Shown here: piece by piece, positions 19,218 to 44,715 of the stretch
Layout: each line of letters begins with the position of its first letter
Numbering within the stretch: the first letter of the stretch is position 1
Assembly: GCA_029210625.1 (NCBI GenBank)
Contig: JARGFU010000005.1
Location: 1 to 64,000, forward strand
Length of the DNA stretch: 64,000 bases
Source of the DNA: Deltaproteobacteria bacterium
GTDB taxonomy: Bacteria > Myxococcota > Myxococcia > SLRQ01
Direction: 5' to 3'
The notes under the pieces: generated by a model
What the model was told of the DNA's origin: nothing
Databases searched by the model: none
Seen by the model: the letters and a program-made list of their open reading frames with translations, nothing else
Made by a program: the position numbers and the translations under genes

Positions 19218-21221
19218 ATGAGGTACGCAGAGACCGGGTTCAATCTCGAGATCGATCTGACACGTGGAAGTATAGAGCGTGTTCCCTCGGACCCCCGCTA
19301 CACCGAGCAGCACCTCGGCGGGCTGGGCACCAACGCCCGGATCTTCTGGGACCGGGTGCCCCCCGAGACCGACGCCTTCGACCCCGAGAACCTCCTCATC
19401 TTCGGCGCGGGCCTCCTGGCCGGCACGCCGGTGCCCAGCGGCAACCGGACGATCGTCTCCTCGATCTCGCCCCAGACCAAGCTCTTCGGCTTCTCGATGA
19501 TGGGCGGCTTCTTTGGCCCTGAGCTCAAGCACGCCGGCTACGACAAGATCATCCTGCGCGGGAAGTCGCCGGAGTGGGTCTACCTCTGGATCCACGACGA
19601 CAAGGTCGAGCTGCGCGACGCCACGATGCTGAAGGGCCTCGGCACCCTGGAGTCCGCCGAGCTGATCCGCCAGGAGCTCGAGGAGCCCGAGGCGGCGGTC
19701 GCCTCTATCGGCCTCGCCGGTGAGAACCGGGTCTTCTTCGCCTCCATCGAGCAGGGCCGCTCCTCGGCCAGCCGGATGGGGCTCGGCGCGGTCATGGGCG
19801 ACAAGAAGCTCAAGGCCATCGCGGTGAAGGGCAGCGGCGATCTCAACATCGCCAAGCCCCTCGAGTTCCTGAAGATCTGCAACGAGGCCCTGCGCTTCAT
19901 CGAGCACCGCAACGACAACCCCATCCCCGGCGTGATGCCCATCCTGGCCGGCCTTGGCTCGCCCCAGGAGATGCAGGTCCACGACGAGAAGTGGCACACC
20001 GAGAACTTCGTCTGGGGCAACGCCCGGGTGCGCCGGAAGGGCTTCTGGACCGACGAGATCCAGAAGGCCTGGACCGACACCATGGAGACCATGCGCACCC
20101 GCCTGCTCTCCTGCCACAACTGCCCGATGAAGTGCGGCGCGGCGATCTCGGTCGACACTCGCCTCTGCTCGTACATGATGAAGTGCTTCTCGAAGCTCAC
20201 CTACACGATGGGCGCCTTCTCGGACCTCGACTTCGGGCTGCGCATCGCCCAGAAGGCCACCGAGCACGGGGTGGACGCCTTCTCGTGTCCGCAGACGATG
20301 GCCTTCGCCGTCGAGCTCTACGAGGACGGCATCCTCACCGACGAGGACCTGCCCGACTTCCCCGAGAAGTCCGAGGACCGCTTCTACTACCTCCTCGACA
20401 AGATCGTCCGGCGGGAGGGGATCGGCGATGTCCTGGCGGACGGCACCCACTGGGCCGGTGAGCGCATCGGCAAGGGCGCGCCGGCCTACGCCCACAACAA
20501 CATCCGCAAGACCGAGCAGCTCCCCCTGAAGCTGGGCATGCTCAACCCGATCTACTTCCTGATGTACAGCACCGGGGAGAAGGCCAGCATCACCCAGATC
20601 GAGGGCAACTACCCCCAGGCTCCCTTCCCGACCCGGGAGGAGCGGGAGGCCTTCGTCGCCGACTGGCCCCAGGTGCCGGACGAGCGCTTCAAGGAGTGGT
20701 TCCTGGAGTGGGAGCTGCGGGGCGAGAAGTCGATCCCCTACACGCCGGGCCTCGAGGCCACCTGCGAGCTGGTCCACTGGCAGGAGCAGCAGCACTACAT
20801 CGACGACGCCATCGGGCTCTGCGCCGGGCTCTCCTCCTTCCCGCTGAAGCCTCCCTTCCACATCCACAACCTGCCCGACCTCATCTCGGCGGGCTCGGGG
20901 CTGGACCTGGACGAGGAGAAGCTGAAGACCATCACCGCCCGCACCCGCACCCTGGTCCGCTGCAACAACATCCTGCGCGGCCTGCGGCGCTCCGACGAGA
21001 AGCCGCCCGAGGATCACTGGAAGCAGCGCTTCCCCGAGCTGGAGGAGCAGCTCCTCGACGCCTACTACGCCTTCAAGGGCTGGAACAGCGAGGGCATCCC
21101 CACGGCGAAGACCCTCCGGGCGCTGGGCCTGGGCTACGTGGCCGAGACCTTCCTCGAGCGGGGCATCCTCTCCGCCGAGGCCGAGGCCGCCGAGGCCCCC
21201 GCGGAGGTGCCCGCATCATGA
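19218..21221 (+). CDS. bamB: Class II benzoyl-CoA reductase active-site subunit (tungsten AOR family)
   Basis: 667 residues, close to the 653-residue Geobacter BamB. The aldehyde:ferredoxin oxidoreductase fold is evident throughout: N-terminal NLEIDLTRG, the pterin-binding region GNRTIVSSISPQTKLFGFSMMGG, and an iron-sulfur motif CHNCPMKC (299-306). Glu251, His255, His260 and Cys323 fall at or next to the positions I recall for the BamB active site and tungsten ligand (Glu251, His255, His260, Cys322), which argues for BamB rather than a generic aldehyde oxidoreductase. Predicted reaction: ATP-independent two-electron reduction of benzoyl-CoA to cyclohexa-1,5-diene-1-carbonyl-CoA. First gene of an eight-gene operon; its stop overlaps bamC (ATGA). 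Confidence 0.85.
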   Translation: MRYAETGFNLEIDLTRGSIERVPSDPRYTEQHLGGLGTNARIFWDRVPPETDAFDPENLLIFGAGLLAGTPVPSGNRTIVSSISPQTKLFGFSMMGGFFGPELKHAGYDKIILRGKSPEWVYLWIHDDKVELRDATMLKGLGTLESAELIRQELEEPEAAVASIGLAGENRVFFASIEQGRSSASRMGLGAVMGDKKLKAIAVKGSGDLNIAKPLEFLKICNEALRFIEHRNDNPIPGVMPILAGLGSPQEMQVHDEKWHTENFVWGNARVRRKGFWTDEIQKAWTDTMETMRTRLLSCHNCPMKCGAAISVDTRLCSYMMKCFSKLTYTMGAFSDLDFGLRIAQKATEHGVDAFSCPQTMAFAVELYEDGILTDEDLPDFPEKSEDRFYYLLDKIVRREGIGDVLADGTHWAGERIGKGAPAYAHNNIRKTEQLPLKLGMLNPIYFLMYSTGEKASITQIEGNYPQAPFPTREEREAFVADWPQVPDERFKEWFLEWELRGEKSIPYTPGLEATCELVHWQEQQHYIDDAIGLCAGLSSFPLKPPFHIHNLPDLISAGSGLDLDEEKLKTITARTRTLVRCNNILRGLRRSDEKPPEDHWKQRFPELEEQLLDAYYAFKGWNSEGIPTAKTLRALGLGYVAETFLERGILSAEAEAAEAPAEVPAS

Positions 21222-21784
21222 GCACGGTCGTCACCCTCGGGAAGCAGAAGACCAAGACGGTCAAGTCGATCAAGATCGACGTCGACAAGTGCAACGGCTG
21301 CCGGGCCTGCGAGGTCATCTGCTCCTCCTTCCACGCCAGCCCGCGCTACAGCAGCGTGAACCCCAAGCGCTCGCGGATCCGCGTCATCCGGGATCCTCTC
21401 GCCGACATCTACGTGCCGGTCTACGCGGGCGAGTACACGGCGGCCGAGTGCGCCGGGCGAGACAAGTACATCATCGACGGCAAGGAGTACGAGGAGTGCG
21501 CCTTCTGCCGCGCGGTCTGCCCCTCGCGGGACGCCTTCAAGGAGCCGGACTCGGGCCTGCCCCTGAAGTGCGACATGTGCGAGTCGGACCCCACGCTGGA
21601 GGAGCCCCTCTGCGTGCAGTGGTGCCTCGCCGACGCCCTGATCTTCGAGCAGCGAGAGGAGCCGGTCACCGCCGCCGCGCCCGGCGCGGAGGCGACCGAG
21701 ACCGAGCTGGGCCTCGAGGCCCTGGCCGACCGCTTCGGCTGGGACGCCATCCTGGACGCCGTCAACCGCCTCAAGAAGGTCTGA
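21218..21784 (+). CDS. bamC: BamC-like polyferredoxin, electron transfer to BamB
   Basis: 188 residues with clustered cysteines for about three [4Fe-4S] clusters: CNGCRACEVIC (residue ~25), ECAFCRAVC (~92) and CDMC...LCVQWC (~120-135). The layout is that of the HycB/NrfC-like ferredoxin subunits paired with AOR proteins, and of BamC, which forms the (BC)2 core with BamB and passes electrons to the active site. It overlaps bamB by 4 bases and is 2 bases from bamD. A C-terminal 40-residue extension (after REEPVTAAAPG) is not part of the cluster-binding core. Confidence 0.85.
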   Translation: MSTVVTLGKQKTKTVKSIKIDVDKCNGCRACEVICSSFHASPRYSSVNPKRSRIRVIRDPLADIYVPVYAGEYTAAECAGRDKYIIDGKEYEECAFCRAVCPSRDAFKEPDSGLPLKCDMCESDPTLEEPLCVQWCLADALIFEQREEPVTAAAPGAEATETELGLEALADRFGWDAILDAVNRLKKV

Positions 21785-21786
21785 TC

Positions 21787-22974
21787 GTGGAGACCCTCAC
21801 CCCCTTCCAGGAGATCATCGAAGAGGTCGATCGCGCGGGCGGCGACTCGGCGCGCTTCTGCTACCAGTGCGGCAAGTGCGACGTGGTCTGCCCCTGGAAC
21901 CGGGTGCGCGACTTCAGCATCCGCAAGATCGTCCGGCAGGCGAACTTCGGCCTGGCCGAGATCGAGCTCGAGGACATGTGGCGCTGCACCACCTGCGGCA
22001 CCTGCCCGACGCACTGCCCCCGGGGGGTCGGCCAGATCGAGGTCGGCATCTCCCTGCGGCGGATCGCCTCCGAGTACGGCGTCTTCCCGGAGAACGTCCG
22101 GGGCGCCGCCACCGCGGCCGGGAGCTGCGCCGCCGAGGGGAACCCCCTCTCCGAGGATCGCGCCGACCGCGCCGCCTGGGCCGAGGGCCTGGGCGTGAAG
22201 CCCTACGTCGAGGGCATGGACTACCTCTTCTACGTGGGCTGCTACTACGCCTACGACCCCCGGATGAAGAAGGTCGCGCGCGCCATCGTCCGCCTGCTCC
22301 AGGAGGCCGGGGTCGACTTCGGCATCCTCGGGAACGACGAGAGCTGCTGCGGCGAGAGCGTCCGCAAGGTGGGGGCCGAGGACACCTTCAAGAAGCTCGC
22401 CCGCTCGAACATCAAGCACTTCATCGACCGGGGCGTGAAGCGGGTGCTGGTCGCGTCGCCGCACTGCCTCCACACCTTCAAGAACGAGTACCCGGAGTTC
22501 ATGGTGAACTTCGAGGTGGTCCACCTCTCCGAGCTCCTCCTCGAGCTCGTCGAGAGCGGCAAGCTGGTGCTGCCTCACGAGGTCGCGCGGAAGATCACCT
22601 ACCACGACCCCTGCTACCTGGGCCGGCACAACGGCTACTACGATCAGCCCCGGGAGCTCCTCGCGAAGGCAGGGGTCGAGCTGGTCGAGATGCGGGACAA
22701 CCGGCAGAACGCGCTCTGCTGCGGCGGCGGCGGCGGCCGGATCTGGATGGACACGCCGAAGGGGGAGCGCTTCGCCGACCTGCGCCTCGAGCAGGCCCGC
22801 GAGACCGGCGCCGAGCTGCTGGTCACCTCCTGCCCCTACTGCATCTCCAACTTCGAGGAGAGCCGCCTCTCCCTCTCGGACGAGGAGGCGGGGCGACTCC
22901 AGGTCCGGGACATCACCGAGGTGCTTCTCGAGGCCCTCGAGGCCCCGGGCGCCACCGAAGAGGAGGCCGCGTAG
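21787..22974 (+). CDS. bamD: BamD-like HdrD/HdrB-type subunit
   Basis: 395 residues from a GTG two bases after bamC. The N-terminal ferredoxin part has two clusters (CYQCGKCDVVC and CTTCGTCPTHC). Two CCG domains follow (VGCYYAYD...DESCCGES...SPHC; DPCYLG...LCCGGGGG...CPYC), which in heterodisulfide reductases hold the non-cubane [4Fe-4S] clusters. In Bam complexes this subunit links the FAD-containing BamE to BamBC. Both CCG motifs look intact. Confidence 0.85.
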   Translation: METLTPFQEIIEEVDRAGGDSARFCYQCGKCDVVCPWNRVRDFSIRKIVRQANFGLAEIELEDMWRCTTCGTCPTHCPRGVGQIEVGISLRRIASEYGVFPENVRGAATAAGSCAAEGNPLSEDRADRAAWAEGLGVKPYVEGMDYLFYVGCYYAYDPRMKKVARAIVRLLQEAGVDFGILGNDESCCGESVRKVGAEDTFKKLARSNIKHFIDRGVKRVLVASPHCLHTFKNEYPEFMVNFEVVHLSELLLELVESGKLVLPHEVARKITYHDPCYLGRHNGYYDQPRELLAKAGVELVEMRDNRQNALCCGGGGGRIWMDTPKGERFADLRLEQARETGAELLVTSCPYCISNFEESRLSLSDEEAGRLQVRDITEVLLEALEAPGATEEEAA

Positions 22975-22976
22975 CG

Positions 22977-25900
22977 ATGACGGGCAACCCGGCCACCTTC
23001 GGTGACGTGATGGTCCTCGGCGGGGGGATCAGCGGGATCCAGGCCGCCCTCGATCTCGCCACCGCCGGCTTCAAGGTCTACCTCGTCGAGCAGGCGCCGA
23101 CCGTCGGCGGGAAGATGGCCCAGCTCGACAAGACCTTCCCGACCAACGACTGCTCGATGTGCATCGAGTCGCCGAAGTTCATCGAGTGCGACCGCCACCC
23201 GAACATCGAGATCCTCACCCACACCGAGGTCGAGAAGGTCGAGGGCGAGGCCGGCAACTTCGAGATCACCCTGAAGCGCAAGCCGCGCTACGTGAAGGAG
23301 GATCTCTGCACCGGCTGCACGGTCTGCGTGGAGTACTGCCCCATCCAGATCCCGGACCCCTTCAACCAGAACCTCTCGGACAACAAGGCCGTCCACATCT
23401 ACTTCTCCCAGGCGGTGCCCCTCGTCCCCTACATCGACGAGGCGTGCGCCTACCTGAAGGACGAGAAGTGCTCGATCTGCGCCGGGGCCTGCGCGAACAA
23501 CGCGATCGATCTCAAGCAGAAGGCCAGCTACGAGACCCTCAAGGTCGGGGCGGTGGTCCTCGCGCCGGGTACCGGGGTCTTCGATCCGCTGCCGCGGGGC
23601 GACTACGGCTACGGCGACATCGAGAACGTCGTCACCAGCCTCGACTACGAGCGGCTGCTCTGCGCCACCGGCCCCCACGAGGGCGAGATCCTGCGGCCCT
23701 CGGACCACCAGCACCCCCACAAGATCGCCTGGATCCACTGCGTGGGCTCGCGGCAGGTCCTCGAGGGCGGCAACAGCTACTGCTCCTCGGTCTGCTGCTC
23801 CTACATCCAGAAGCAGGTCATCCTCACCAAGGACCACGACGCCGACGCCGAGGCGGTGATCTTCCACAACGACATCCGCTCCTACGGCAAGGACTTCGAG
23901 CGCTTCTATCAGCGGGCGCAGAAGCTGCCGGGCGTCGAGTTCGTGCGCTCCTACGTCTCGATCGGCCGCGAGGATCCGGTCACGAAGAACGTCACCATCC
24001 GCTACGCCACGGCGGAGGGGGTGAAGGAGGACGAGTTCGACCTGGTGGTGCTCGGCGTGGGCCTCACGCCGCCCCGGGGCGCCGACCGCCTGGCGCTCCA
24101 GTTCGGGATCGACCTCACCCCTCAGGGCTACTGCAAGACCGCGCCGCAGAGCCCGGTGTCGACCAGCCGCCCGGGGGTCTTCGTCAGCGGCGCCTTCCGC
24201 GGGCCGGCGGACATCCCCGAGTCGGTGATGACCGCCAGCGGCGCCGGCGCGCTGGTGGGCGAGCTGCTCAACTACCGCCGGGGCAAGCTCGCCCAGGACC
24301 GGATCTACCCGGAGGAGCGCGACACCTCCGAGGAGGAGGTGCGGACCGGCGTCTTCGTCTGCCACTGCGGCGCCAACATCGGGCGGGTCGTCGACATCCC
24401 CTCGGTGGTCGAGTACGCGCAGGGCCTCGAGAACGTGGTCCACGCCGAGGAGGGGCTCTTCATCTGCTCCACCGACGCCGCCGCGCAGATCTCGAACACC
24501 ATCCGGGAGAAGAAGCTCAACCGGGTCTGCGTCGCCGCCTGCACGCCCAAGACCCACGAGCCCCTCTTCCGGGACACCCTGCGCGAGGGTGGCATCAACC
24601 AGTACTTCTTCGACATGGCCAACATCCGCGAGCACTGCTCCTGGGTGCACTCCAAGCAGAAGGAGGAGGCCACCGCGAAGGCCAAGGACATCGTCCGGAT
24701 GTCGGTGGCCCGGACCAAGCACCTCGAGCCCCTCCAGGAGTTCGACCTGCCGGTGAACCCGGTGGCGCTGGTGGTGGGCGGCGGCCCGGCCGGCCTCACC
24801 GCGGCCCTGGCCATCGCCAACCAGGAGATCCAGGTCCACCTCGTCGAGAAGGAAGATCAGCTCGGCGGCATGGCCCGCCGCCTCCACCGCACCCTCGACG
24901 GCCTCGAGGTCCAGCCCTGGCTGCAGGAGCAGATCCGCGCCGTCTACCGGCACCCCCGGATCCAGGTCTACCACTCGGCCGTGGTCGAGGAGGCCACCGG
25001 CTACGTCGGCAACTTCGTGACCCGGGTCCGCTCGGAGGGGCGCCTCTCGGTCATCGAGCACGGCGCGACCGTGCTGGCCACCGGGGCGGCCGAGCACCGG
25101 CCCGTCGAGTACCTCTACGGCGAGGACGAGCGGGTCCTCACCCAGCTCGAGCTCGAGGGGCGCCTCGCCGCCGCCCGCAAGGGGGAGGCGGACGCCTCGA
25201 TCGGCGAGGCCGAGCGCCTGGTGATGATCCAGTGCGTCGGCTGCCGCAACGTGGACCGCAACTACTGCGCCCGGGTCTGCTGCAACCAGGCGGTGAAGAA
25301 CGCCCTCGATCTGAAGGCGCAGCGGCCCGCGCTCGACGTCTACGTCCTCTTCCGCGACATGCGGACCTACGGCTTCGGCGAGGACGCCTACCGCGAGGCC
25401 GCCGATCGCGGCGTGCGCTTCGTCCGCTACGAGCCCGAGGACGGGCCGACGGTGGTGAAGGCGAAGGGGGAGGGCGGCAAGGAGGTCCTGCGGGTCACGG
25501 TGCCGGATCCGGTCCTGGGCGCGCGCCTCGAGCTGGACGCCGACCTGCTCGCCCTCTCGGTGGCGGTGGTGCCCTCCGAGGGCAGCCGCAGCGCCGTGAA
25601 GCAGTTCAAGGTCGCCCAGAACCCGGACGGCTTCTTCCAGGAGGCCCACGTGAAGCTGCGGCCGGTGGACTTCGCCGCCGACGGGGTCTTCCTCGCGGGC
25701 GCCGCCCACTACCCGAAGCACCTCTCCGAGGCCCTCGGTCAGGCCCTCGGCGCCGCCGGCCGGGCCGCGACCCTGCTCTCCCAGCCCACCGTGAAGGCCT
25801 CGGGCTCGGTCTGCGACGTGGTCGAGCCCGACTGCGTGAGCTGCGGCGCCTGCATCACCGCCTGCACCTACGGCGCCATCACCTTCGTGGACACCCCTCT

Positions 25901-26039
25901 GGGCCAGAAGGCCCGCGTCAACCCCGTCCTCTGCAAGGGCGACGGTCTGTGCAACGCCAAGTGCCCGACCAACGCCATCATGCTGAAGCACTTCACCGAC
26001 GAAGAACTCTTCAACCAGATCGACGCCGCTCTGGCCTGA
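22977..26039 (+). CDS. bamE: BamE-like double HdrA flavoprotein
   Basis: 1020 residues. Two consecutive HdrA-like flavin domains are present: MVLGGGISGIQAALDLA near residue 11 and VALVVGGGPAGLTAALAIA near 595. Each is followed by Cys-rich elements, including CSMC, CTGCTVCVEYC, CSICAGAC and CVGSR...CSSVCC in the first half, CVGCRNV...CARVCC in the second. A C-terminal ferredoxin has CVSCGACITAC and CKGDGLCNAKC. In HdrA-type enzymes the FAD is the electron-bifurcating cofactor. As part of the Bam complex it would couple exergonic and endergonic electron transfers so that benzoyl-CoA can be reduced without ATP. Adjacent on both sides to bamD and bamF. Confidence 0.85.
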   Translation: MTGNPATFGDVMVLGGGISGIQAALDLATAGFKVYLVEQAPTVGGKMAQLDKTFPTNDCSMCIESPKFIECDRHPNIEILTHTEVEKVEGEAGNFEITLKRKPRYVKEDLCTGCTVCVEYCPIQIPDPFNQNLSDNKAVHIYFSQAVPLVPYIDEACAYLKDEKCSICAGACANNAIDLKQKASYETLKVGAVVLAPGTGVFDPLPRGDYGYGDIENVVTSLDYERLLCATGPHEGEILRPSDHQHPHKIAWIHCVGSRQVLEGGNSYCSSVCCSYIQKQVILTKDHDADAEAVIFHNDIRSYGKDFERFYQRAQKLPGVEFVRSYVSIGREDPVTKNVTIRYATAEGVKEDEFDLVVLGVGLTPPRGADRLALQFGIDLTPQGYCKTAPQSPVSTSRPGVFVSGAFRGPADIPESVMTASGAGALVGELLNYRRGKLAQDRIYPEERDTSEEEVRTGVFVCHCGANIGRVVDIPSVVEYAQGLENVVHAEEGLFICSTDAAAQISNTIREKKLNRVCVAACTPKTHEPLFRDTLREGGINQYFFDMANIREHCSWVHSKQKEEATAKAKDIVRMSVARTKHLEPLQEFDLPVNPVALVVGGGPAGLTAALAIANQEIQVHLVEKEDQLGGMARRLHRTLDGLEVQPWLQEQIRAVYRHPRIQVYHSAVVEEATGYVGNFVTRVRSEGRLSVIEHGATVLATGAAEHRPVEYLYGEDERVLTQLELEGRLAAARKGEADASIGEAERLVMIQCVGCRNVDRNYCARVCCNQAVKNALDLKAQRPALDVYVLFRDMRTYGFGEDAYREAADRGVRFVRYEPEDGPTVVKAKGEGGKEVLRVTVPDPVLGARLELDADLLALSVAVVPSEGSRSAVKQFKVAQNPDGFFQEAHVKLRPVDFAADGVFLAGAAHYPKHLSEALGQALGAAGRAATLLSQPTVKASGSVCDVVEPDCVSCGACITACTYGAITFVDTPLGQKARVNPVLCKGDGLCNAKCPTNAIMLKHFTDEELFNQIDAALA

Positions 26040-26050
26040 AGGAGAAGCGA

Positions 26051-26815
26051 ATGAGCAACTTCGAGTTCCAGCCGAAGATCGTGGCATTCCTCTGCCACTG
26101 GTGAGCGTATTCCGCTGCGGACCTGTCTGGAGTTTCCAGACAACAGTATTCGACCGAGGTGCGAATCGTCCGTGTCATGTGCACGGGGCGGATCGATCTG
26201 TCCTTCATCACCCGGGCCTACTCCAAGGGGGCCGACGGCGTGATCATCGGGGGCTGCTGGCCCGGGGAGTGTCACTACATCACCGAGGGGAACTACGACG
26301 CCCTCGCCAACACCCACCTGATGCGCAAGCTGATGAAGCGCATCGGCCTGGACACCGGGCGCCTGCGCCTGGAGTGGATCGCCGCCTCGGAGGGCTCCCG
26401 CTTCGCCGAGATCATGAGCGGCTTCTCCGCGGACATCCGCGCGCTGGGCCCCATCGGTGAGGCCGAGGGGATGGACGCCGAGGCGCGGGTCTTCAAGCTG
26501 GCGGCGGTGGACCGCCTGATCCCCTACCTCAAGCTCGTCGAGCGCGAGCGCCTGCGGCCGCCGGTGCGGACCGAGGAGGCGATCAACGCCTACTACGACA
26601 GCGAGGCGGCGGAGCGGCTCTTCGACGCCCTGATCTCCGACGAGCTCATGGCCTCGCAGATCCTCATGCTCCTCGGGGAGGGCCCCCTCTCCACCGGGGA
26701 GATCGGAAAGAAGCTGGGCCTCTCCTCCTCGGAGGTCGCCCGGCAGATGAAGACCTCCTCCGGACGCGGGCTGGTGCGCTTCGACGCCGAGAAGGGGAGC
26801 TACGCCCTCGCCTAG
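26051..26815 (+). CDS. bamF: BamF-like MvhD-family selenoprotein (in-frame UGA = Sec18)
   Basis: 254 residues when the TGA at 26102-26104 is read as selenocysteine. The reading frame continues without interruption on both sides: FLCHW-U-AYSAADLSGVSR, then VRIVRVMCTGRID and GGCWPGECHY, all conserved MvhD features in which the U position is normally Cys. BamF of Geobacter is known to contain selenocysteine. A short hairpin suited to a bacterial SECIS lies 19 bases after the UGA. A conventional reading would yield only a 17-residue peptide plus a truncated protein from the GTG at 26159. The C-terminal 100 residues resemble a winged-helix (STGEIGKKLGLSSSEVARQMK). Role: [2Fe-2S] electron relay to BamE. 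Confidence 0.88.
26102..26104 (+). other. UGA selenocysteine codon in bamF
   Basis: In-frame TGA at residue 18 of bamF. It replaces the second Cys of the conserved CxxC-like MvhD motif (C-H-W-U). The frame stays open with strong family similarity on both sides. Confidence 0.85.
26124..26142 (+). promoter_or_regulatory. Candidate bacterial SECIS hairpin
   Basis: TGTCTGGA-GTT-TCCAGACA: an 8-bp perfect stem with a 3-base loop starting with G, beginning 19 bases after the UGA. Loop size, leading G and distance fit the general model for bacterial SECIS elements. Codon usage here is markedly AT-richer than the neighbours, as expected if RNA structure constrains the sequence. Confidence 0.7.
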
Positions 26816-26837
26816 AGGGTTCGAGAGAGATGACGCG

Positions 26838-27290
26838 ATGGACCTGAAGAGAGTCGACGAGATCATCGAGGCACACGGCGGAGATCCCTCGTCCCTGATC
26901 CAGGTGCTGCTGCAGATCCAGGCCGAGAACCGCTGGCTGCCCAAGGAGGCCATGGAGCGGGTCGGCGAGAAGCTCGGCGTGCAGCTCGCCCGCATCCGCC
27001 ACATCGCGACCTTCTACAAGGCCTTCAGCCTGGTCCCGAAGGGCCGGCACCAGGTGAACCTCTGCGTGGGGACCGCCTGCCACGTCCGGGGCGCGGCCCG
27101 GGTGCTCCACACCATGGAGGAGGTCACCGGCATCGGGCCGGGCGAGACCGACCTCGAGCTGCGCTTCTCCCTCGAGACCGTCAACTGCCTGGGCTGCTGC
27201 GCCCTGGGGCCGGTGATGGACGTCGACGGCGAGATCCACGGCCGGCTCACCACCACCGGCGCCACCGAGGTGCTGGAGAAGTACGAGTAG
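26838..27290 (+). CDS. bamG: BamG-like NuoE-type [2Fe-2S] subunit
   Basis: 150 residues, thioredoxin-fold NuoE/HndA type. Ligands for a [2Fe-2S] cluster are seen as CVGTACHVRG (~75) and CLGCCALGPVM (~115); the N-terminal helical bundle (SLIQVLLQIQAENRWLPKEAMERV) is standard. In complex I and bifurcating hydrogenases it sits beside the NuoF flavoprotein, and here it precedes the NuoF-like gene by 2 bases. Role: electron entry from NADH or an alternative donor into the Bam complex. Confidence 0.88.
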   Translation: MDLKRVDEIIEAHGGDPSSLIQVLLQIQAENRWLPKEAMERVGEKLGVQLARIRHIATFYKAFSLVPKGRHQVNLCVGTACHVRGAARVLHTMEEVTGIGPGETDLELRFSLETVNCLGCCALGPVMDVDGEIHGRLTTTGATEVLEKYE

Positions 27291-27292
27291 CC

Positions 27293-29206
27293 ATGTGTCG
27301 CCTGGAGAACACCGCGGCCTACGAGGCCTACCGCAAGGAGCTGCTCGACGCCCGCGCGGGTGACGCGCCCACCGTGGCGGTCTGCGCCGGCACCGGCTGC
27401 CTGGCGATGGGGGCGAAGGGGGTCATCGAGGCCTTCGAGTCCGCCATCGAGGAGAAGGGGCTCGACGCGACCGTCGGGGTCAAGCGCGCCGGCTGCCCCG
27501 GCTTCTGCGAGCGGGGCCCGGTGGTGGTCATCCACCCCGAGGAGACCTGCTACCTGCAGGTGAAGCCCGAGGACGTCGCCGAGATCGTCGAGCAGACCCT
27601 CGCCGGGGGGAAGGTCGTCGAGCGCCTCCTCTACGAGGACGCCGCCAGCGGCGCGCGCTCGCAGCGGGAGTCGGAGATCCCCTTCTACGCCCACCAGGAG
27701 CGGCGCCTGCTGGCGAGCAACATCAAGCTCGACTCCCGGAAGATCGACGACTACGTCGCCCTCGGCGGCTACTCGGCCCTGGCCAAGGCCCTCTCCTCGA
27801 TGAGCGCCCAGGACGTGCTCGACGAGGTGAAGAACGCCAACCTGCGCGGGCGGGGCGGGGCGGGCTTCCCGGCCGGCCGCAAGTGGGAGGGATCGCGCGA
27901 CGCCCCGGCCGACGAGCGCTTCGTCATCGTGAACGCGGACGAGGGCGACCCCGGCGCGTTCATGGACCGGGCCCTCCTCGAGGGGAACCCCCACTCGATC
28001 CTCGAGGGGCTGATCCTCGGCGCCTACGCCATCGGCGCGCACCAGGGCTACGTCTACGTCCGCCAGGAGTACCCCCTGGCCGTGGACAACCTCCTCCACG
28101 CCATCGAGGAGGCCACCCGCCTCGGCTTCCTGGGCGAGGACATCCTCGGCTCGGGCTTCGACTTCGTGGTCCACGTCCACCGGGGCGCCGGCGCCTTCGT
28201 CTGCGGCGAGTCCACCGCCCTGATGACCGCGCTGGAGGGGAGGGTGGGGGAGCCCCGCCCCAAGTATGTGCGCTCGAACGTGAAGGGCCTCTGGGGCAAG
28301 CCCAGCGTGCTCAACAACGTCGAGACCTGGGCCAACGTGCCGCTGATCATCAACCACGGCGCCGAGTGGTTCACGAAGGTGGGCACCGAGACCTCCAAGG
28401 GCACCAAGATCTTCTCCCTGGTGGGCAAGATCACCAACACCGGCCTGGTGGAGGTGCCCATGGGGATGACCCTGCGCCAGATCGTCGAGGACATCGGCGG
28501 CGGTGTGCCGGGCGGGAAGAAGTTCAAGGCGGTGCAGACCGGCGGCCCCTCGGGGGGCTGCATCCCCGAGTCGATGCTCGACCTGCCGGTGGGCTTCGAC
28601 GAGCTCTCCGACGTGGGCTCGATGATGGGCTCGGGCGGGATGATCGTGATGGACGAGGACACCTGCATGGTGGACGTCGCCCGCTACTTCACGGAGTTCC
28701 TCACCGACGAGTCCTGCGGCAAGTGCATCCCCTGCCGCGAGGGGCTGCGGCAGATGCTGCGGCTGCTCAACAAGATCGTCGAGGGGAAGGGCACCCGCGA
28801 GGACCTCGCGACCCTGGAGGAGATCTCCGAGGTCACCTCGGTCGCCTCCCTCTGCGCCCTGGGCAAGAGCGCCCCGGCGCCCCTGCTCTCCACCCTGAAG
28901 TACTTCCGGGAGGAGTTCGAGGCGCACATCGACGAGAAGCGCTGCCCGGCCCTCTCCTGCAACGAGATGGTCCGGTACTGGATCGATCCGGACGCCTGCA
29001 AGGCCTGCCTGATCTGCACCCGGCACTGCCCCTCCGAGGCCATCTCCGGGGCCAAGAAGCAGATCCACGTCATCGATCAGGAGCTCTGCAACGGCTGCGG
29101 CTCCTGCTGGGAGGTCTGCCCGGACAAGTTCGACGCCATCCGGCGGATCTCGGGTGCGCCGGTGCCCGATCCCCTGCCCGAGGATCAGCGGGAGGTGCGG
29201 GCATGA
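27293..29206 (+). CDS. bamH: BamH-like NuoF-type flavoprotein
   Basis: 637 residues. Order: N-terminal thioredoxin-like [2Fe-2S] domain (CAGTGCLAMG and AGCPGFCERGP), NuoF FMN/NAD(H) domain with GRGGAGFPAG and ADEGDPGAFMDR, [4Fe-4S] motif ESCGKCIPCREG near residue 475, and a C-terminal two-cluster ferredoxin (CKACLICTRHC, CNGCGSCWEVC). This is the HndC/NuoF arrangement of soluble bifurcating complexes. It should oxidise or reduce NAD(H) and feed BamE. The stop overlaps the bamI start (ATGA). Confidence 0.88.
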   Translation: MCRLENTAAYEAYRKELLDARAGDAPTVAVCAGTGCLAMGAKGVIEAFESAIEEKGLDATVGVKRAGCPGFCERGPVVVIHPEETCYLQVKPEDVAEIVEQTLAGGKVVERLLYEDAASGARSQRESEIPFYAHQERRLLASNIKLDSRKIDDYVALGGYSALAKALSSMSAQDVLDEVKNANLRGRGGAGFPAGRKWEGSRDAPADERFVIVNADEGDPGAFMDRALLEGNPHSILEGLILGAYAIGAHQGYVYVRQEYPLAVDNLLHAIEEATRLGFLGEDILGSGFDFVVHVHRGAGAFVCGESTALMTALEGRVGEPRPKYVRSNVKGLWGKPSVLNNVETWANVPLIINHGAEWFTKVGTETSKGTKIFSLVGKITNTGLVEVPMGMTLRQIVEDIGGGVPGGKKFKAVQTGGPSGGCIPESMLDLPVGFDELSDVGSMMGSGGMIVMDEDTCMVDVARYFTEFLTDESCGKCIPCREGLRQMLRLLNKIVEGKGTREDLATLEEISEVTSVASLCALGKSAPAPLLSTLKYFREEFEAHIDEKRCPALSCNEMVRYWIDPDACKACLICTRHCPSEAISGAKKQIHVIDQELCNGCGSCWEVCPDKFDAIRRISGAPVPDPLPEDQREVRA

Positions 29207-29799
29207 GCCGGATCAAGATGAAGATCGACGACCGGGAGGTCACGGCGAAGGAGGGGCAGAGCGTCCTCGAGGTCGCCCGCGAGGCGGGGATCGAGATCCC
29301 CACCCTCTGCCACGACGAGCGCCTCGAGCCCTTCGGCGGCTGCCGCCTCTGCATGGTCGAGGTCCAGACCGGCGGCTGGGCCCAGCTGGTCGTCTCCTGC
29401 GTCTACGAGGCGAAGGAGGGCCTGGTGGTCCGCACCCGCAGCGAGGAGATCGACAAGATCCGGCGGGTGCTCCTCGAGCTCCTGATGGCCCACGCGCCGA
29501 CCTCGCCCCAGCTCCTGGCCATGGGCGAGGTCTACGGCGCGCGGCCCGACCGCTTCGAGCCCGACCCCTCCTTCTGCGTCCACTGCGGCCTCTGCGTGCG
29601 CTACTGCAACGAGGTGAAGCAGCTCGACGCCATCGGCTTCATCGACCGGGGCGTGAACAAGGAGATCTCCTTCGTGCCCGAGATCGCGGCGGCGGCCTGC
29701 GAGGGCTGCAAGGAGTGCTTCCCCCTGTGCCCCACCTCCTACCTGCAGGCGGCCTTCGTCCGGGTGGAGGCGCTCTCGCGCAAGCTGCCGCGGGCCTGA
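29203..29799 (+). CDS. bamI: BamI-like NuoG-type N-terminal iron-sulfur subunit
   Basis: 198 residues, equal to only the N-terminal iron-sulfur part of NuoG/HndD. It contains a [2Fe-2S] domain (CHDERLEPFGGCRLCMVEVQ ... CVYE), then a ferredoxin region with CVHCGLCVRYCNE and CEGCKECFPLCP. The lack of any molybdopterin or hydrogenase domain matches the short BamI. Last gene of the operon; 131 bases without a gene follow. Confidence 0.86.
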   Translation: MSRIKMKIDDREVTAKEGQSVLEVAREAGIEIPTLCHDERLEPFGGCRLCMVEVQTGGWAQLVVSCVYEAKEGLVVRTRSEEIDKIRRVLLELLMAHAPTSPQLLAMGEVYGARPDRFEPDPSFCVHCGLCVRYCNEVKQLDAIGFIDRGVNKEISFVPEIAAAACEGCKECFPLCPTSYLQAAFVRVEALSRKLPRA

Positions 29800-29930: not shown

Positions 29931-32900
29931 ATGTCGACGAAGCGCTGGCCGCTCGCCCTGCTCCTGCTCACCCTCCTGACCGCCGCCTGCAAGGACCCGC
30001 CGGGGCCGACGCTGACGGCCGGCCTGCCGCAGACGGTGGGGGAGGGTGAGGCCGTCACCCTGAGCGCGACGGTCGTGAACGCCCCGGAGGGCGCGACCCT
30101 GCGCTGGTCGCAGCAGGGCGGCGCTGACGTGGGGGCGCTGGCCGCCGGGGCGGAGGCCACCTTCACCGCGCCCGCGGTCGACGCCGACGCGCTCCTCGGC
30201 TTCCGGGTCGAGCTCTTAAGTGAGAAGCGCGAGCTCCTGACTCAGGACAGCACGACGGTGCTCGTGCTGGATCTCGACACCGGGCCCGTGGTCGAGGCTG
30301 GTCCCGATCAAGAGGCGATGGAGGGCGACACGGTCCAGCTGGGCGGTAGCTACACGGATGCCGACGACGATGTCGTGGACTGGATCTGGGAGCAGCGCAC
30401 GGGGCCGACGGTGACCCTGAGCGATCCCACCGCCCTCGATCCGAGCTTCACCGTGCCAGACATCACCTGGCCCACGCTCTTCACCTTCGCCCTCACGGTG
30501 ACAGACCAGACCGGCCGGAGCGGCGTCGACGAGGTCTCGGTGGTGGTGGTGGGTGTCAACGCCCGCCCGGAGGCCGACGCGGGCCCGGATCAGATCGTGG
30601 ACGAGGGCGCGGCGGTGCAGCTCGCCGGCTCCGCCACGGACATCGACGGCAGCATCCAGACCCTGCAGTGGGTGCAGCTCTCCCCCTACGTCCCCCGGCT
30701 GGACCTGAGTGACCCCACGGTCGCCGCCCCTGTCTTCACGGCCCCGTCCACGACCGAGCCCCTGATCTTCGTGCTGGAGCTTCAGGTCTGGGACGCCGAG
30801 GGCGCCCGGGGCACCGACACCATCAGCATCACGGTGCTCCCGGTCAACGTCGCGCCGACCATCGAGGCCGGCCCGGATCAGATCGTCGATGAGGCCACGG
30901 TCGTCCAGCTGGCCGGCTCGGCCTCGGACGCCGACGGCAGCGTGGCGACCCTGCAGTGGACCCAGCTCTCGCCGATGAGCCCGCTGTTGGCCTTCAGCGA
31001 CCCGGCCGCGGCCGATCCCACCTTCGTCGCGCCCCCGGCCGGCGCACCCCAGGTCTACGTCCTGCAGCTCACGGCCACCGACGACGAGGGCGCCGCCGCC
31101 GCCGACGTGGTGCGGGTCGAGGTGCGGCCCGTCCTCACCGCCCCGGTGGTGGACGCAGGCGCCGACCAGACCGTCGACGAGGGGGCCCTGGTGCAGCTCG
31201 CCGGCACCGTGAGCGACGCCGACGGCACGGTGCAGAGCACCACCTGGGTGCAGCTCTTCCCGGTGACCCCGCAGGTGAGCCTGGACGACGACACGATCCT
31301 CACCCCCACCTTCACCGCCCCGACCGTGACGGCGCCCACGACCCTGGTCTTCCGCCTGCAAGCCGTCGACGACGAGGGGGTCAGCGCCAGCGACACGGTG
31401 GGCATCAGCGTGCTGCCCCTCAACGCGCCGCCGGTGGTGGACGCCGGGCCGGCCCAGACCGTGCTCGGCCTGGAGGCGGTGCAGCTCGCCGGCAGCGCGA
31501 GCGATCCCGACGGCACCATCGTCCGGACGAGCTGGCAGCAGACCGCGGGGCCGGCGGTGACCCTGAGCGACGCCAACGTCCTCGACCCGACCTTCGACGC
31601 CCCCGACGTGCTGATCACGACCCTCGTCGAGCTGGAGCTGGAGATCGAGGACGACGAGGGCGCGATCGCCCGCGACCGGGTGCTCGTCACGGTCGACCCC
31701 CTGGTGCCGCAGAACCAGCCTCCGATCGTGCTGGCGGGCCCGGATCAGGTCGCCGCCACCGGCAGCCTGGTGCAGCTGGGGGGCGCCGCCTCCGATCCCG
31801 ACGGGACGGTGGCCTCGACCACCTGGACCCAGCTCTCTGGGCCGACCGTCACCCTCGACGATCCGGCCTCCCTCACCCCGAGCTTCTCGGCGCCGGCGGT
31901 GGCCTGCGCGGTGGTCCTCGTCTTCGAGCTCGGCGCGACCGACGACCAGGGGGCCACGGCCTCGGACCGGGTGAGCGTGATCGTCGACGGCGCGGGGGGA
32001 ACCCCCATCACCCCCGGCGCGCTCCTCGACCTGGAGAGCGACGACGGCGGCCTGCTCACCGAGGGGACCCTCTGGCAGTGGGGGGTGCCCACCACCGGAC
32101 CCGGGCAGGCCTACAGCGGCGGCCGGGTCTGGGGCACGGAGCTCGCCGGAAACTACGCCAACAATCAGCTCGAGGTGCTCTGCCTCCCGCCCATCGACCT
32201 CTCCGGCACGCCGGATCCGGTCCTGAGCCTGCGCCTCTTCGCGGCGATGGGCTCCGGGGACGGGCTCACCCTCGAGGGCCTGGATCCCCAGGCGGGCTGG
32301 ACGCCGATCACCTCCCTGAGCCGGCCCTACGACGGCACCGCGGGCGGCCGGCCGGTCTGGGGCTCGACGCCGGTGACCGCCACCTGGTGGCAGGTGCTGG
32401 CGGACCTGCCCGGCTGGCTGGGCAGCGAGGCGCGGGTGCGCTTCACCTTCTACTCCAACGGCACCTGGCTGGGCGCCGGCGCCTACCTCGACGATCTGCG
32501 CGTCGACGACGAGAGCAGCGATCCGGACGGGGACGGGATCCCCGGGCTCTTCGCCGAGCTCGCCTCCACCGGCACCGATCCGCTGGTCTCCGACCACGAC
32601 GGAGACGGCCACGACGACGGCGTCGAGGTGGCGGCGGGGACCGATCCCCTCAACCCGGGCGACTACCCCGGGGCGCAGCTCTTGACCCCCGGCTTCGTCC
32701 TCGACTTCGAGAGCGACGACGGAGGGCTCTCCGGCGACCTCCCCTGGGACTGGGGCACGCCGGCGAGCGGCCCGGGCGCCGCCTACCGGGGCACGGGGGC
32801 CTGGGCCACCAACCTCTCGGGCAGCTACGGCGCGAACGAGCGCTCGGCCCTCTACCTGCCGCGCGTCGATCTCACGGCCGGCGGCACGGCCGTGCTCACC

Positions 32901-34700
32901 GCCCGCCTCTGGCTGCAGGGCAACGGCGGCGACGGCCTCTCGGTCGAGGCCTGGAACGCGAGCCTCGGGGTCTGGGAGCAGGTGGGGCCGGTCACGCCCG
33001 CCTACGAGGCCACCGACGCCCTCGGGCTCCCGGCCTGGCGGGACCACCGCTACCTGAACGAGTACCGCCTCGTCGCCCTCTCACTCGCTCCCTACTCGGG
33101 GCAGGTCGTTCGCCTGCGCTTCGTCTTCCGCACCGACGGGACCTGGATCGGGCCCGGCGCCTACCTCGACGACGTGGGCATCCACTGGGAGACCAGCGAT
33201 CCCGACGCCGACGGCCTGGCGGGGATCCTCGCCGAGCTCGCCCTGGGGACCGATCCCCTGGTGGCCGACAGCGATGGTGACGGCAGCCTCGACGGCGCCG
33301 AGGTGGCCGGCGCCACCGACCCCCTCAACCCGGCCGACTTCCCGGGCGTGGCGGCGCTCCTCCCCGGACAGCTCCTCGACCTCGAGAGCGACGACGGAGG
33401 CCTCGCGACCACCGGCCTCCTCTGGCAGTACGGCTCGGTCGCCAGCGGGCCGGGCGCGGGCCACGACGGCACCCGGGCCTGGGGGACCAACCTCTCGGGG
33501 AACTACCCCGGGGACCAGCGGGAGTTCCTCTACCTGCCCCCGATCGACCTGAGCTCGGCCACCGGCGCGACCCTGCACGGGCGGATCTGGGCCCTGGCGA
33601 ACAGCGGGGACGGCGTGAGCCTGGAGGTCCACACGGCCGCCAGCGGCTGGCAGACCCTGGCGGTCGCGGAGCCGGCCTACGACGCCATGGACGCCATCGG
33701 CAGGGTCGCCTGGCGCAACCAGACCTCGCTGCAGCCCTACCGCCTCTTCCTCGTCTCCCTGGCCGGCTTCTCGGGGCAGCGGGTGCTGCTGCGCTTCGCC
33801 TTCCGCTCGGACGGCGCCTGGACGAACCCGGGCATCTACCTCGACGACCTCGGCGTCGAGCTCGAGAGCACCGACCCGGACGGCGACGGTCTGGTGGGGG
33901 TGTACGACGAGTGGCTCCCGCACGGCACCGATCCCCTGGCGGCCGACACCGACGGGGATGGCAGCGGCGACGGGGTGGAGGTGGCGACGACCACCGATCC
34001 CCTCAACCCCGCCGACTACCCGGGCGGCCCCCTGCTCTCGACCGGGGACTGGCTGGACTTCGAGCTCGACGACGGCGGCCTGGTCGCCGAACACGTCGGC
34101 TGGCAGTTCGGCAACCCGGCCAGCGGCCCCGGCGTGGCCCACTCGGGGTCGCGGGTCTGGGGGACCTGGCTCTCGGGCAACTACCCGGGCAACGCCGTGG
34201 AGAACCTCTGGCTCCCGCCCCTGGCGCTGACCTCCACGACCCGGCCCACCCTGAGCCTGAGGGTCTACGTGGACGGCAACAGCGGCGACGGGCTCGGCCT
34301 CGACGTGCAGGACGCCGCCGGGGTCTGGAGCCGCCAGGTCCCCGACGTGGGGCCCTACGACGCCACCGACGCCCAGGGCGTCGTGGCCTGGCGCGAGCTG
34401 CGCAACGGCGCCGGCTACGTCTTCGTGGCCTTCGAGCTGACGGCCTGGAACGGGGTGCTCCTGCCCGCCCGCCTGCGCTTCACCTCCGACGGCACCTGGA
34501 CCGGCCCCGGCGCCTACGTCGACGACCTGCGCCTCGACGAGGAGGGCAGCGATCCCGACGGGGACGGTCTCCCCGGCATCGTCGACGAGATCGCCACCCA
34601 CGGGACCGACCCCTACCTCGCCGACACCGACGGCGACGGAGTGGGGGACGGCGTGGAGGTAGGCGCGGGCACCAACCCCCTGAACCCGCTGGAGTTCTGA
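29931..34700 (+). CDS. Giant PKD-like and thrombospondin-3 repeat lipoprotein
   Basis: 1589 residues. Lipoprotein signal ending LLTAAC (Cys20), preceded by GAGGAA. After one divergent domain there are six Ig/PKD-like (K319L-type) domains of about 95 residues, each starting AGPDQ-V-EG-VQLAG and ending with a DDEGA-A-D strand. From about residue 700 four tandem units of about 222 residues follow, each with LD(L/F)E-DDGGL, WG-P-SGPG, a GNY element, a DGTW-GPGAYLDD strand, then calcium-binding thrombospondin type-3 repeats (SDPDGDG, DGDG-DGVEV) and LNP. Such architecture is typical of secreted adhesion or cell-contact proteins that need Ca2+. Ligand unknown. Monocistronic. Confidence 0.9.
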   Translation: MSTKRWPLALLLLTLLTAACKDPPGPTLTAGLPQTVGEGEAVTLSATVVNAPEGATLRWSQQGGADVGALAAGAEATFTAPAVDADALLGFRVELLSEKRELLTQDSTTVLVLDLDTGPVVEAGPDQEAMEGDTVQLGGSYTDADDDVVDWIWEQRTGPTVTLSDPTALDPSFTVPDITWPTLFTFALTVTDQTGRSGVDEVSVVVVGVNARPEADAGPDQIVDEGAAVQLAGSATDIDGSIQTLQWVQLSPYVPRLDLSDPTVAAPVFTAPSTTEPLIFVLELQVWDAEGARGTDTISITVLPVNVAPTIEAGPDQIVDEATVVQLAGSASDADGSVATLQWTQLSPMSPLLAFSDPAAADPTFVAPPAGAPQVYVLQLTATDDEGAAAADVVRVEVRPVLTAPVVDAGADQTVDEGALVQLAGTVSDADGTVQSTTWVQLFPVTPQVSLDDDTILTPTFTAPTVTAPTTLVFRLQAVDDEGVSASDTVGISVLPLNAPPVVDAGPAQTVLGLEAVQLAGSASDPDGTIVRTSWQQTAGPAVTLSDANVLDPTFDAPDVLITTLVELELEIEDDEGAIARDRVLVTVDPLVPQNQPPIVLAGPDQVAATGSLVQLGGAASDPDGTVASTTWTQLSGPTVTLDDPASLTPSFSAPAVACAVVLVFELGATDDQGATASDRVSVIVDGAGGTPITPGALLDLESDDGGLLTEGTLWQWGVPTTGPGQAYSGGRVWGTELAGNYANNQLEVLCLPPIDLSGTPDPVLSLRLFAAMGSGDGLTLEGLDPQAGWTPITSLSRPYDGTAGGRPVWGSTPVTATWWQVLADLPGWLGSEARVRFTFYSNGTWLGAGAYLDDLRVDDESSDPDGDGIPGLFAELASTGTDPLVSDHDGDGHDDGVEVAAGTDPLNPGDYPGAQLLTPGFVLDFESDDGGLSGDLPWDWGTPASGPGAAYRGTGAWATNLSGSYGANERSALYLPRVDLTAGGTAVLTARLWLQGNGGDGLSVEAWNASLGVWEQVGPVTPAYEATDALGLPAWRDHRYLNEYRLVALSLAPYSGQVVRLRFVFRTDGTWIGPGAYLDDVGIHWETSDPDADGLAGILAELALGTDPLVADSDGDGSLDGAEVAGATDPLNPADFPGVAALLPGQLLDLESDDGGLATTGLLWQYGSVASGPGAGHDGTRAWGTNLSGNYPGDQREFLYLPPIDLSSATGATLHGRIWALANSGDGVSLEVHTAASGWQTLAVAEPAYDAMDAIGRVAWRNQTSLQPYRLFLVSLAGFSGQRVLLRFAFRSDGAWTNPGIYLDDLGVELESTDPDGDGLVGVYDEWLPHGTDPLAADTDGDGSGDGVEVATTTDPLNPADYPGGPLLSTGDWLDFELDDGGLVAEHVGWQFGNPASGPGVAHSGSRVWGTWLSGNYPGNAVENLWLPPLALTSTTRPTLSLRVYVDGNSGDGLGLDVQDAAGVWSRQVPDVGPYDATDAQGVVAWRELRNGAGYVFVAFELTAWNGVLLPARLRFTSDGTWTGPGAYVDDLRLDEEGSDPDGDGLPGIVDEIATHGTDPYLADTDGDGVGDGVEVGAGTNPLNPLEF

Positions 34701-35194: not shown

Positions 35195-36373
35195 CTACGC
35201 GCTCGCCAGCTCGCGCACGGCCTGCAGGCAGGCCTCGAGGTCGTCTGCGGTGGTGGTCCAGCCGAGGCTGAAGCGGACCGCCCCCTCGGGGGTGGTGCCC
35301 AGCCGCTCGTGGCAGAGGGGCGCGCAGTGCAGGCCGGTGCGGCAGGCCACCGCGTGATCGACGTCGAGGCGGGTGCCGACCTGCGCCGGATCCATCCCCG
35401 CCAGGAGGAAGGAGAGCAGCGGCACCCGGTCCCGGGTGGAGCCGGCCGTGTCGGGCCCCAGGAGGGTGACGCCCTCGATGGCGTTCAGCCCCTCCCAGAG
35501 CCGCTCGTGGAGGGCCTGCTCCCGGGCGTGGCGGGCGGCGGGCCCGCCCTCGGCCTCCAGGTGAGCGAGGGCCGCGGCGAGGCCGGCGATCCCCAGGAGG
35601 TTGGGTGTGCCCGCCTCCAGGCGGTGGGGGTAGCCCTCGAGGTGGCGCCGGGAGATCGAGTCGGCGCCGGTGCCGCCCACCCGGGAGTGGTGAAGCTCGA
35701 TCCCGGGGGCCACGACCAGCCCGCCCACGCCGGTGGGGCCGAGGAGGGCCTTGTGGCCGGTGAAGGCGAGGAGATCGATCTGCATCGCCTGCACGTCGAT
35801 GGACAGGAGCCCGGCGCTCTGGGCCGCGTCGACCAGCAGGGGCACCCCCGCCTCGCGGCAGAGCGCGCCCACCTCGGCCACCGGCTGGACGGTGCCGAGC
35901 ACGTTGGAGGCGTGGGTGAGGATCACCAGGCGAGTGTCGGGGCGCAGCGCCTCGCGGACGTCGTCGGGGTCGATCAGCCCCTGGCCGCCGAAGTCGATCA
36001 GGGTCACCTCGACGCCGCGCTCGTCGGCGAGGTGGGCGAGGGGGCGCAGCACCGAGTTGTGCTCGAGGCGGGTGGTGATCACGTGACCCCCACCGCCGAG
36101 GCGCCCGGCGATAGCCAGGTTGAGGGCATCGGTGGCGTTGAGGCCGAAGACGATCCGGTCCGGATCGGGCGCGCCGAAGAGGCGGGCGAGGGCGCGGCGG
36201 CAGTCCTGCACCATCGTGTCGGCCACCAGCCCCAGATCGTAGGTGGCGCGGCCGGGCGAGACGCAGGCCCGCAGGCCGAAGTCGTGCATGGCCTCGAGCA
36301 CCCCGGGGAGGGTGGGGAAGCTGGTCGAGGCGTGATCGAGGTAGCGCAGCCCCTCGGCGGGATCGACATCCAT
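35195..36373 (-). CDS. Cysteine desulfurase-family PLP enzyme
   Basis: 392 residues, aminotransferase class V fold. Motifs: N-terminal YLDHASTSFP, cofactor region TTRLEHNS, LVDAAQSAG, and the PLP lysine in AFTGHKALLGPTGVGG. A Cys-containing loop (CRTGLHCAPLCHE) near residue 345 can supply the sulfur-accepting cysteine. It matches the 'cysteine desulfurase family protein' group rather than classical IscS or SufS. It starts 67 bases from the divergent dsrC-like gene, and the two could form a sulfur-transfer pair: PLP enzyme to DsrC. Confidence 0.85.
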   Translation of the reverse strand: MDVDPAEGLRYLDHASTSFPTLPGVLEAMHDFGLRACVSPGRATYDLGLVADTMVQDCRRALARLFGAPDPDRIVFGLNATDALNLAIAGRLGGGGHVITTRLEHNSVLRPLAHLADERGVEVTLIDFGGQGLIDPDDVREALRPDTRLVILTHASNVLGTVQPVAEVGALCREAGVPLLVDAAQSAGLLSIDVQAMQIDLLAFTGHKALLGPTGVGGLVVAPGIELHHSRVGGTGADSISRRHLEGYPHRLEAGTPNLLGIAGLAAALAHLEAEGGPAARHAREQALHERLWEGLNAIEGVTLLGPDTAGSTRDRVPLLSFLLAGMDPAQVGTRLDVDHAVACRTGLHCAPLCHERLGTTPEGAVRFSLGWTTTADDLEACLQAVRELASA

Positions 36374-36440
36374 CGTCTGGCACGCTACCGAGGGGCCTGC
36401 GGGGGGTCAAACACCCCTCGCGGGAGGAGGAGCCCGGAAG

Positions 36441-36758
36441 ATGCCGCAGCTGAAGGTCGGAGAGCGCAGCCTGGAGATCGACGAGAAGGGCTTCCTCCAG
36501 GAGACCGACGCCTGGGACGAGGCGGTGGCCCTGGCCCTGGGGGCCTCGGAGGGGATCACCGCGCTGACGCCCGAGCACCTGAAGGTCGCCCGCTACCTGC
36601 GCGACCACTGGCTCGCGCACGGGGTGGCCCCGATGGTGCGCAAGCTCTGCAAGGAGACCGGCTGCAAGCTCTCCCGGATCTACGAGCTCTTCCCCTCGGG
36701 CCCGGCGATGGGCGCCTGCAAGGTGGCCGGGCTGCCCAACGCCAAGGGCTGCGTTTGA
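36441..36758 (+). CDS. dsrC: DsrC/TusE-family sulfur carrier
   Basis: 105 residues with a GGAGGAG ribosome site. The DsrC fold is clear (LKVGERSLEIDEKGFLQ; YLRDHWLAHGVAPMVRKLCKETGCKLSRIYELFP). The flexible C-terminal arm keeps both redox cysteines, Cys93 (GACKVAG) and the penultimate Cys104, so it is a true DsrC rather than single-Cys TusE. DsrC carries a trisulfide in dissimilatory sulfite reduction, but no dsrAB is seen in the window; other uses include sulfur relay or redox signalling. Confidence 0.93.
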   Translation: MPQLKVGERSLEIDEKGFLQETDAWDEAVALALGASEGITALTPEHLKVARYLRDHWLAHGVAPMVRKLCKETGCKLSRIYELFPSGPAMGACKVAGLPNAKGCV

Positions 36759-43424: not shown

Positions 43425-44014
43425 CCGGTCTCGTGGATACGGTCGACGAGGCCCGCGGGCAAGGCCGTCGGCGCGGCGGCGATCAGGGTGGTCTCCTCCA
43501 GGCCGGCCAGGGCCTCGAGCACCCGGGCGGCCCCCTCGTCGTCGAGATCGGCGAGGGGCTCGTCGAGGAGGAGCAGGCGGGGCGCCGGCGCCAGGGCCTG
43601 GGCCAGCGCGATGCGCCGCTTCTCCCCGCCGGAGAGCCCCTCCCGCTGCCGGGAGGCCAGGTGCGCCACGCCCAGCCGCTCGAGCCACTCGCGGGCGAGG
43701 CGCTCGGCCTCCCGCCGGCCCAGGCCGCGGGCCCGCAGACCGTAGGTGGCGTTGGCGAGCACCGAGCCCCGGAAGAGGAGGGGCTGCTGGTGGACGTAGA
43801 TCCGCTCGCGCACCGGCAGGTCGATCTCGAGGCGCCCGTTGGCGCTCTCGTCGAGGCCGGCGAGGACCTTCAGGAGGGTGGTCTTCCCGGAGCCGTTGGG
43901 GCCGACCAGGCCCAAACGCTCCCCGGCGCCGACCTCGAGGGCGGGCACCGCGCAGATGGTCTTGCCCTCGCGCTGGACCCTCAGGCCCTCGATCCGGATC
44001 AGCGGCCCGCTCAT
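43421..44014 (-). CDS. Tungstate-type ABC transporter ATPase (TupC-like)
   Basis: 197 residues, a short ABC ATPase. Walker A GPNGSGKTT (~36-44), Q-loop HQQPLL, signature LSGGEKRR, Walker B RLLLLDEPL and D-loop LADLDD are all intact. It lacks the C-terminal regulatory TOBE domain of ModC, as expected for TupC/WtpC-like minimal ATPases. It overlaps the permease stop by 4 bases and moeA by 4 bases. Confidence 0.88.
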   Translation of the reverse strand: MSGPLIRIEGLRVQREGKTICAVPALEVGAGERLGLVGPNGSGKTTLLKVLAGLDESANGRLEIDLPVRERIYVHQQPLLFRGSVLANATYGLRARGLGRREAERLAREWLERLGVAHLASRQREGLSGGEKRRIALAQALAPAPRLLLLDEPLADLDDEGAARVLEALAGLEETTLIAAAPTALPAGLVDRIHETG

Positions 44015-44712: not shown

Positions 44713-44715
44713 GGG

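Follow-up and report, generated by a model that had tools for sequence, protein, structure and literature searches.

The MvhD/VhuD/FrhD proteins (Pfam family PF02662) are listed as a selenoprotein family with a CxxU motif (PMC13188914), and electrons pass from the [2Fe-2S] cluster of MvhD to the HdrA flavin that carries out bifurcation (PMC12350162; PMC6019823). Class II benzoyl-CoA reductases feature a Cys ligand of the tungsten together with Glu251, His255, Glu257 and His260 (PMC12096430), and selenocysteine (Sec) has been reported in the BamE subunit of Desulfococcus multivorans (PMC5109826). The model for the bacterial SECIS element (bSECIS) specifies a loop of 3-9 nt with G in the first two positions and an upper stem of 4-16 bp, located 16-37 nt from the UGA (PMC13188914). 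Here we describe a bamF gene with an in-frame TGA, in a stretch of DNA of 64,000 nucleotides (hereafter the window, to which positions refer unless stated otherwise).

Results

The bamF gene lies in a complete bam operon and contains a single in-frame TGA

The window contains a complete eight-gene bamBCDEFGHI set for a class II benzoyl-CoA reductase (19218-29799), all on the plus strand, with bamF located between bamE and bamG. The product of bamB (19218-21221), the tungsten subunit, aligns over nearly its whole length with the Geobacter metallireducens enzyme (PDB 4z3w; 1081 bits), and retains Glu251, His255, Glu257 and His260 as well as the tungsten ligand Cys323, equivalent to Cys322 of G. 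metallireducens. This gene is followed by bamC (21218-21784), which encodes a polyferredoxin subunit with Fer4 domains and keeps its position in related operons, by bamD (21787-22974), coding for an HdrB/C-like subunit with CCG and Fer4 domains, and by bamE (22977-26039), whose product is an HdrA-like flavoprotein (NF040770 HdrA2, 915 bits) with a Cys at residue 62. Downstream of bamF are genes for a NuoE-like subunit (bamG, 26838-27290; PF01257, E=4.8e-47), a NuoF/HoxF-like subunit (bamH, 27293-29206; PF01512 and PF10589) and a subunit resembling the NuoG N-terminus/HoxU (bamI, 29203-29799; PF13510). Most related loci of sufficient length show the same arrangement of bam genes, which, together with the identity of BamB, supports the prediction that this operon encodes a class II benzoyl-CoA reductase (Bam).

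Several neighbouring genes were also noted. The minus strand at 42216-45540, about 12-16 kb 3' of bamI, encodes MoeA and a tungstate-type, TupABC-like ABC transporter whose components (TupA, TupB and an ATPase-like protein) score below the NCBIfam cut-offs, in keeping with the presence of a tungsten enzyme. A 1589-residue protein with PKD and bacterial TSP3 repeats, apparently a lipoprotein, is encoded at 29931-34700 on the plus strand, starting 132 bases past bamI, and an apparent fusion of a multihaem cytochrome c with a cytochrome b561-like membrane domain is found at 13810-15915 on the minus strand.

The bamF frame itself spans 26051-26815 on the plus strand (254 codons plus the stop, a TAG at 26813), and its sole internal stop is the TGA at codon 18 (26102-26104). 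Translated with TGA as U, it reads MSNFEFQPKIVAFLCHWUAYSAADLSGVSRQQYSTEVRIVRVMCTGRIDLS...GGCWPGECHY..., comprising an MvhD/FlpD domain and a C-terminal winged-helix-like region, so that the CxxC motif of the MvhD/FlpD family appears as C15-H-W-U18. The match to PF02662 (FlpD, MvhD family) spans the TGA, covering BamF residues 10-133 with 156.5 bits (E=3.9e-46) against a gathering score of 22.3. A first-pass annotation had claimed that one TGA breaks an MvhD/BamF frame at the position of a family Cys; both the frame and this match bear out the single interruption, and the position is confirmed by the homologue alignment described below.

Gene callers that treat TGA as a stop would truncate or split bamF, thereby concealing a subunit of an ATP-independent benzoyl-CoA reductase. 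Indeed, an open reading frame of 218 codons beginning at an internal GTG (26159) does exist, and automatic annotation would probably call this or a shorter form, as expected if the TGA were a genuine stop, or a mutation that inactivates the gene, and such an internal start gave a shorter protein lacking the CxxU motif. Against this stands the purine-rich AAGGAG immediately 5' of the ATG at 26051. The GC content at third codon positions is likewise as high in codons 1-17 (0.94) as would befit a translated region, falling to 0.56 in codons 19-36 and rising to 0.97 thereafter; the high values before the TGA and after codon 36 indicate that bamF is an intact coding sequence on either side. Given also that the TGA is retained in 62 homologues in which the upstream residues align, and that the genome encodes Sec machinery (both detailed below), a true stop at codon 18 appears very improbable, and the reading of TGA as Sec is the one pursued here.

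The TGA codon is conserved among BamF homologues

A scan of 84,980 species genomes for homologues of BamF returned 70 loci, 66 of which include position 18. This position is TGA in 62 loci and Cys (TGT or TGC) in the remaining four; no other residue occurs. In the solved MvhD proteins 8rvu and 5odc, homologues that match BamF by sequence at E=1e-40, the corresponding column also holds Cys (CNWC). The alignment shows nothing but Cys or TGA at the five thiol positions of BamF (15, 18, 44, 69 and 74). Comparison with Cys-containing homologues had been proposed as a check on the first-pass annotation, and the column proved to hold only Cys or TGA; its further claim, that BamF of Geobacter contains Sec, fits the loci of Geobacter, Geotalea and Geomonas, which have TGA here.

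A SECIS-like hairpin with atypical codons follows the TGA

Downstream of the TGA, positions 26124-26142 (plus strand) can form a SECIS-like hairpin, UGUCUGGA-GUU-UCCAGACA, with an 8-bp stem and a 3-nt apical loop (26132-26134) that starts with G followed by U. The distance from UGA to loop is 27 nt, and loop, stem and distance all fall within the bSECIS constraints tested. The letters of the hairpin are nearly identical in relatives, including Geobacter, and several of its codons are rare or absent elsewhere in the operon (operon frequencies: GCT 0.006, TCT 0.006, GTT 0.004, AGA 0.005 and CAA 0.0). When synonymous codons were resampled using the operon's own codon usage, eight of eight stem pairs were obtained with P=0.005; judged by stem energy alone, the same resampling gave a borderline P=0.057. 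For the Arg of the GVSR/GVTR motif, 60 of the 62 TGA homologues use AGA or AGG, and the four Cys homologues all use CGN.

Folding was compared with shuffled sequences over two lengths: a 49-nt stretch gave z=-2.06, and a 65-nt stretch folded no better than its shuffles (z=-0.16). About half of the relatives have a mispair in the stem, either G/A at a single inner position or T/T close to its base. The stem scarcely varies among the 62 TGA relatives, so covariation is uninformative here. A search of the Rfam library returned no SECIS family match for the hairpin; since bacterial SECIS elements have little sequence in common (PMC13188914), we do not hold this result against it.

These data also bear on whether the TGA could be a sequencing or assembly error for TGC or TGT, as the four homologues with Cys at column 18 might be taken to suggest. 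The occurrence of TGA in the same column of 62 of the 66 homologues, each separately assembled, excludes chance or assembly error, and the conserved hairpin with its host-atypical codons argues in the same direction. We therefore regard an error as scarcely credible, and take the TGA of bamF to be genuine.

The genome encodes selenocysteine machinery and further selenoprotein candidates

Searches of the host genome (6.11 Mb, 98% complete) identified SelA, SelD and SelB, the last with a score over the cut-off, and a tRNA-Sec (Infernal, 67.5 bits) to which ARAGORN assigns the anticodon TCA. A second-best match to the tRNA-Sec model (L002) coincides with a tRNA-Ser and was discarded. The search for selA, selB, selC and selD, which had been put forward as a check on the first-pass annotation, thus came out in its favour and, together with the Cys/TGA column and the SECIS-like hairpin, supports its proposal that bamF is a selenoprotein gene, as judged from sequence.

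Two further genes contain an in-frame TGA. One is selD itself (L018:1396-2451, minus strand), with the TGA at GAGUACKL, so that SelD is probably also a selenoprotein; the other, a fragment of a formate dehydrogenase alpha subunit gene (L115:1-1851, plus strand), has its TGA at CAATUHAPT and is the third likely selenoprotein gene of this genome. This genome therefore has the full Sec trait, which is apparently put to use in at least three genes. Within the window, a TIGR01977 cysteine desulfurase gene, with a weaker match to the selenocysteine lyase SclA (323 bits, the cut-off being 525), is divergent from a DsrC/TusE-like gene (35195-36758), and it is possible that the two form a selenium or sulfur supply pair.

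With the standard code leaving the remaining bam genes free of internal stops, Cys in this column of other MvhD proteins, a tRNA-Sec with anticodon TCA in the genome and nothing found in its favour, a reading of UGA as another residue (Trp, for instance), whether by an altered genetic code or by near-cognate suppression, has a negligible chance of being correct.

Distribution of Sec and Cys in BamF and BamE

A quickly built tree of BamF, rooted with FlpD proteins of the Cys type and assessed by SH-aLRT support alone, requires no more than a single Cys/Sec change and places the four Cys homologues basally in the family. Counts by phylum on this tree are unreliable, as records titled just Deltaproteobacteria fall under Myxococcota in NCBI ranks. 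Three of the four Cys homologues are found within bam-type operons. The idea that they come from genomes that have lost Sec is counted against by the presence of SelA, the component searched for there, in all four genomes; the persistence of Cys forms alongside SelA raises the possibility that the choice between Sec and Cys is not simply fixed by having the Sec trait.

Full-length BamF was found in just one of 147 genomes of the window's class, that of the host, and the other matches in the class are partial and more distant FlpD proteins, of the Cys type wherever the position could be read. This distribution fits horizontal gain of the operon; alternatively, the operon may have been lost elsewhere in the class. 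We see about an even chance that the Sec of BamF replaced Cys on a single occasion, that the hairpin has since been carried with the bam operon between distant bacterial lineages as a near-fixed nucleotide sequence resisting the codon usage of very GC-rich hosts, and that the Sec trait does not by itself set which residue is kept.

Of about 65 BamE alignments, nine show TGA at residue 62. This agrees with the Sec reported in BamE of D. multivorans (PMC5109826), and the position would appear to be a second, optional Sec site of the Bam complex.

Discussion

Our analysis leaves little doubt that bamF encodes a selenoprotein, in which UGA18 is decoded as Sec by SelB and Sec-tRNA via the hairpin at 26124-26142, and whose product is the predicted MvhD-type [2Fe-2S] electron connector of the class II benzoyl-CoA reductase. 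On the bamF mRNA, SelB and Sec-tRNA would be recruited by the hairpin and would insert Sec at codon 18. The protein would then be expected to carry an MvhD-type [2Fe-2S] cluster, adjoin the HdrA-like flavoprotein BamE and, by homology with the transfer from MvhD to HdrA, hand electrons towards it within the Bam complex. BamE, in turn, presumably performs the flavin-based electron bifurcation that powers the reduction of benzoyl-CoA at the BamB tungsten site. Sec18 may contribute to electron transfer or cluster ligation; it could serve as a ligand of the cluster, a residue with a tuning role or an exchangeable thiol. Aromatic degradation in this organism is likely to be selenium-dependent as well as tungsten-dependent. 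Pairs of bam operons that match except for Sec or Cys provide natural variants with which to probe the contribution of Sec to an electron connector of the MvhD type.

Comparison with known systems places this locus among described relatives. Like the MvhD/VhuD/FrhD selenoproteins, BamF belongs to PF02662 and has the CxxU motif, with Cys in the matching column of MvhD 5odc and 8rvu; unlike them, it is linked to a bam operon, has the C-terminal winged-helix-like extension and is encoded with its hairpin inside the coding sequence, as a bacterial SECIS. With BamF of Geobacter, Geotalea and Geomonas it shares operon order, the TGA codon and near-identical hairpin letters, whereas protein identity is about 53-62% over the aligned parts and third-position GC in the rest of the gene here reaches 97%. 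D. multivorans also has a selenoprotein in the same complex (PMC5109826), but there Sec is in BamE, in which the window's protein has Cys at residue 62. Since PF02662 (CxxU) already figures among the listed selenoprotein families, the BamF described here is a well-supported further example rather than a surprise. What it mainly adds is evidence from codon choice that the hairpin is conserved in a host of very high GC content, a family history explained by one Cys/Sec change, and Cys forms that persist in genomes with SelA.
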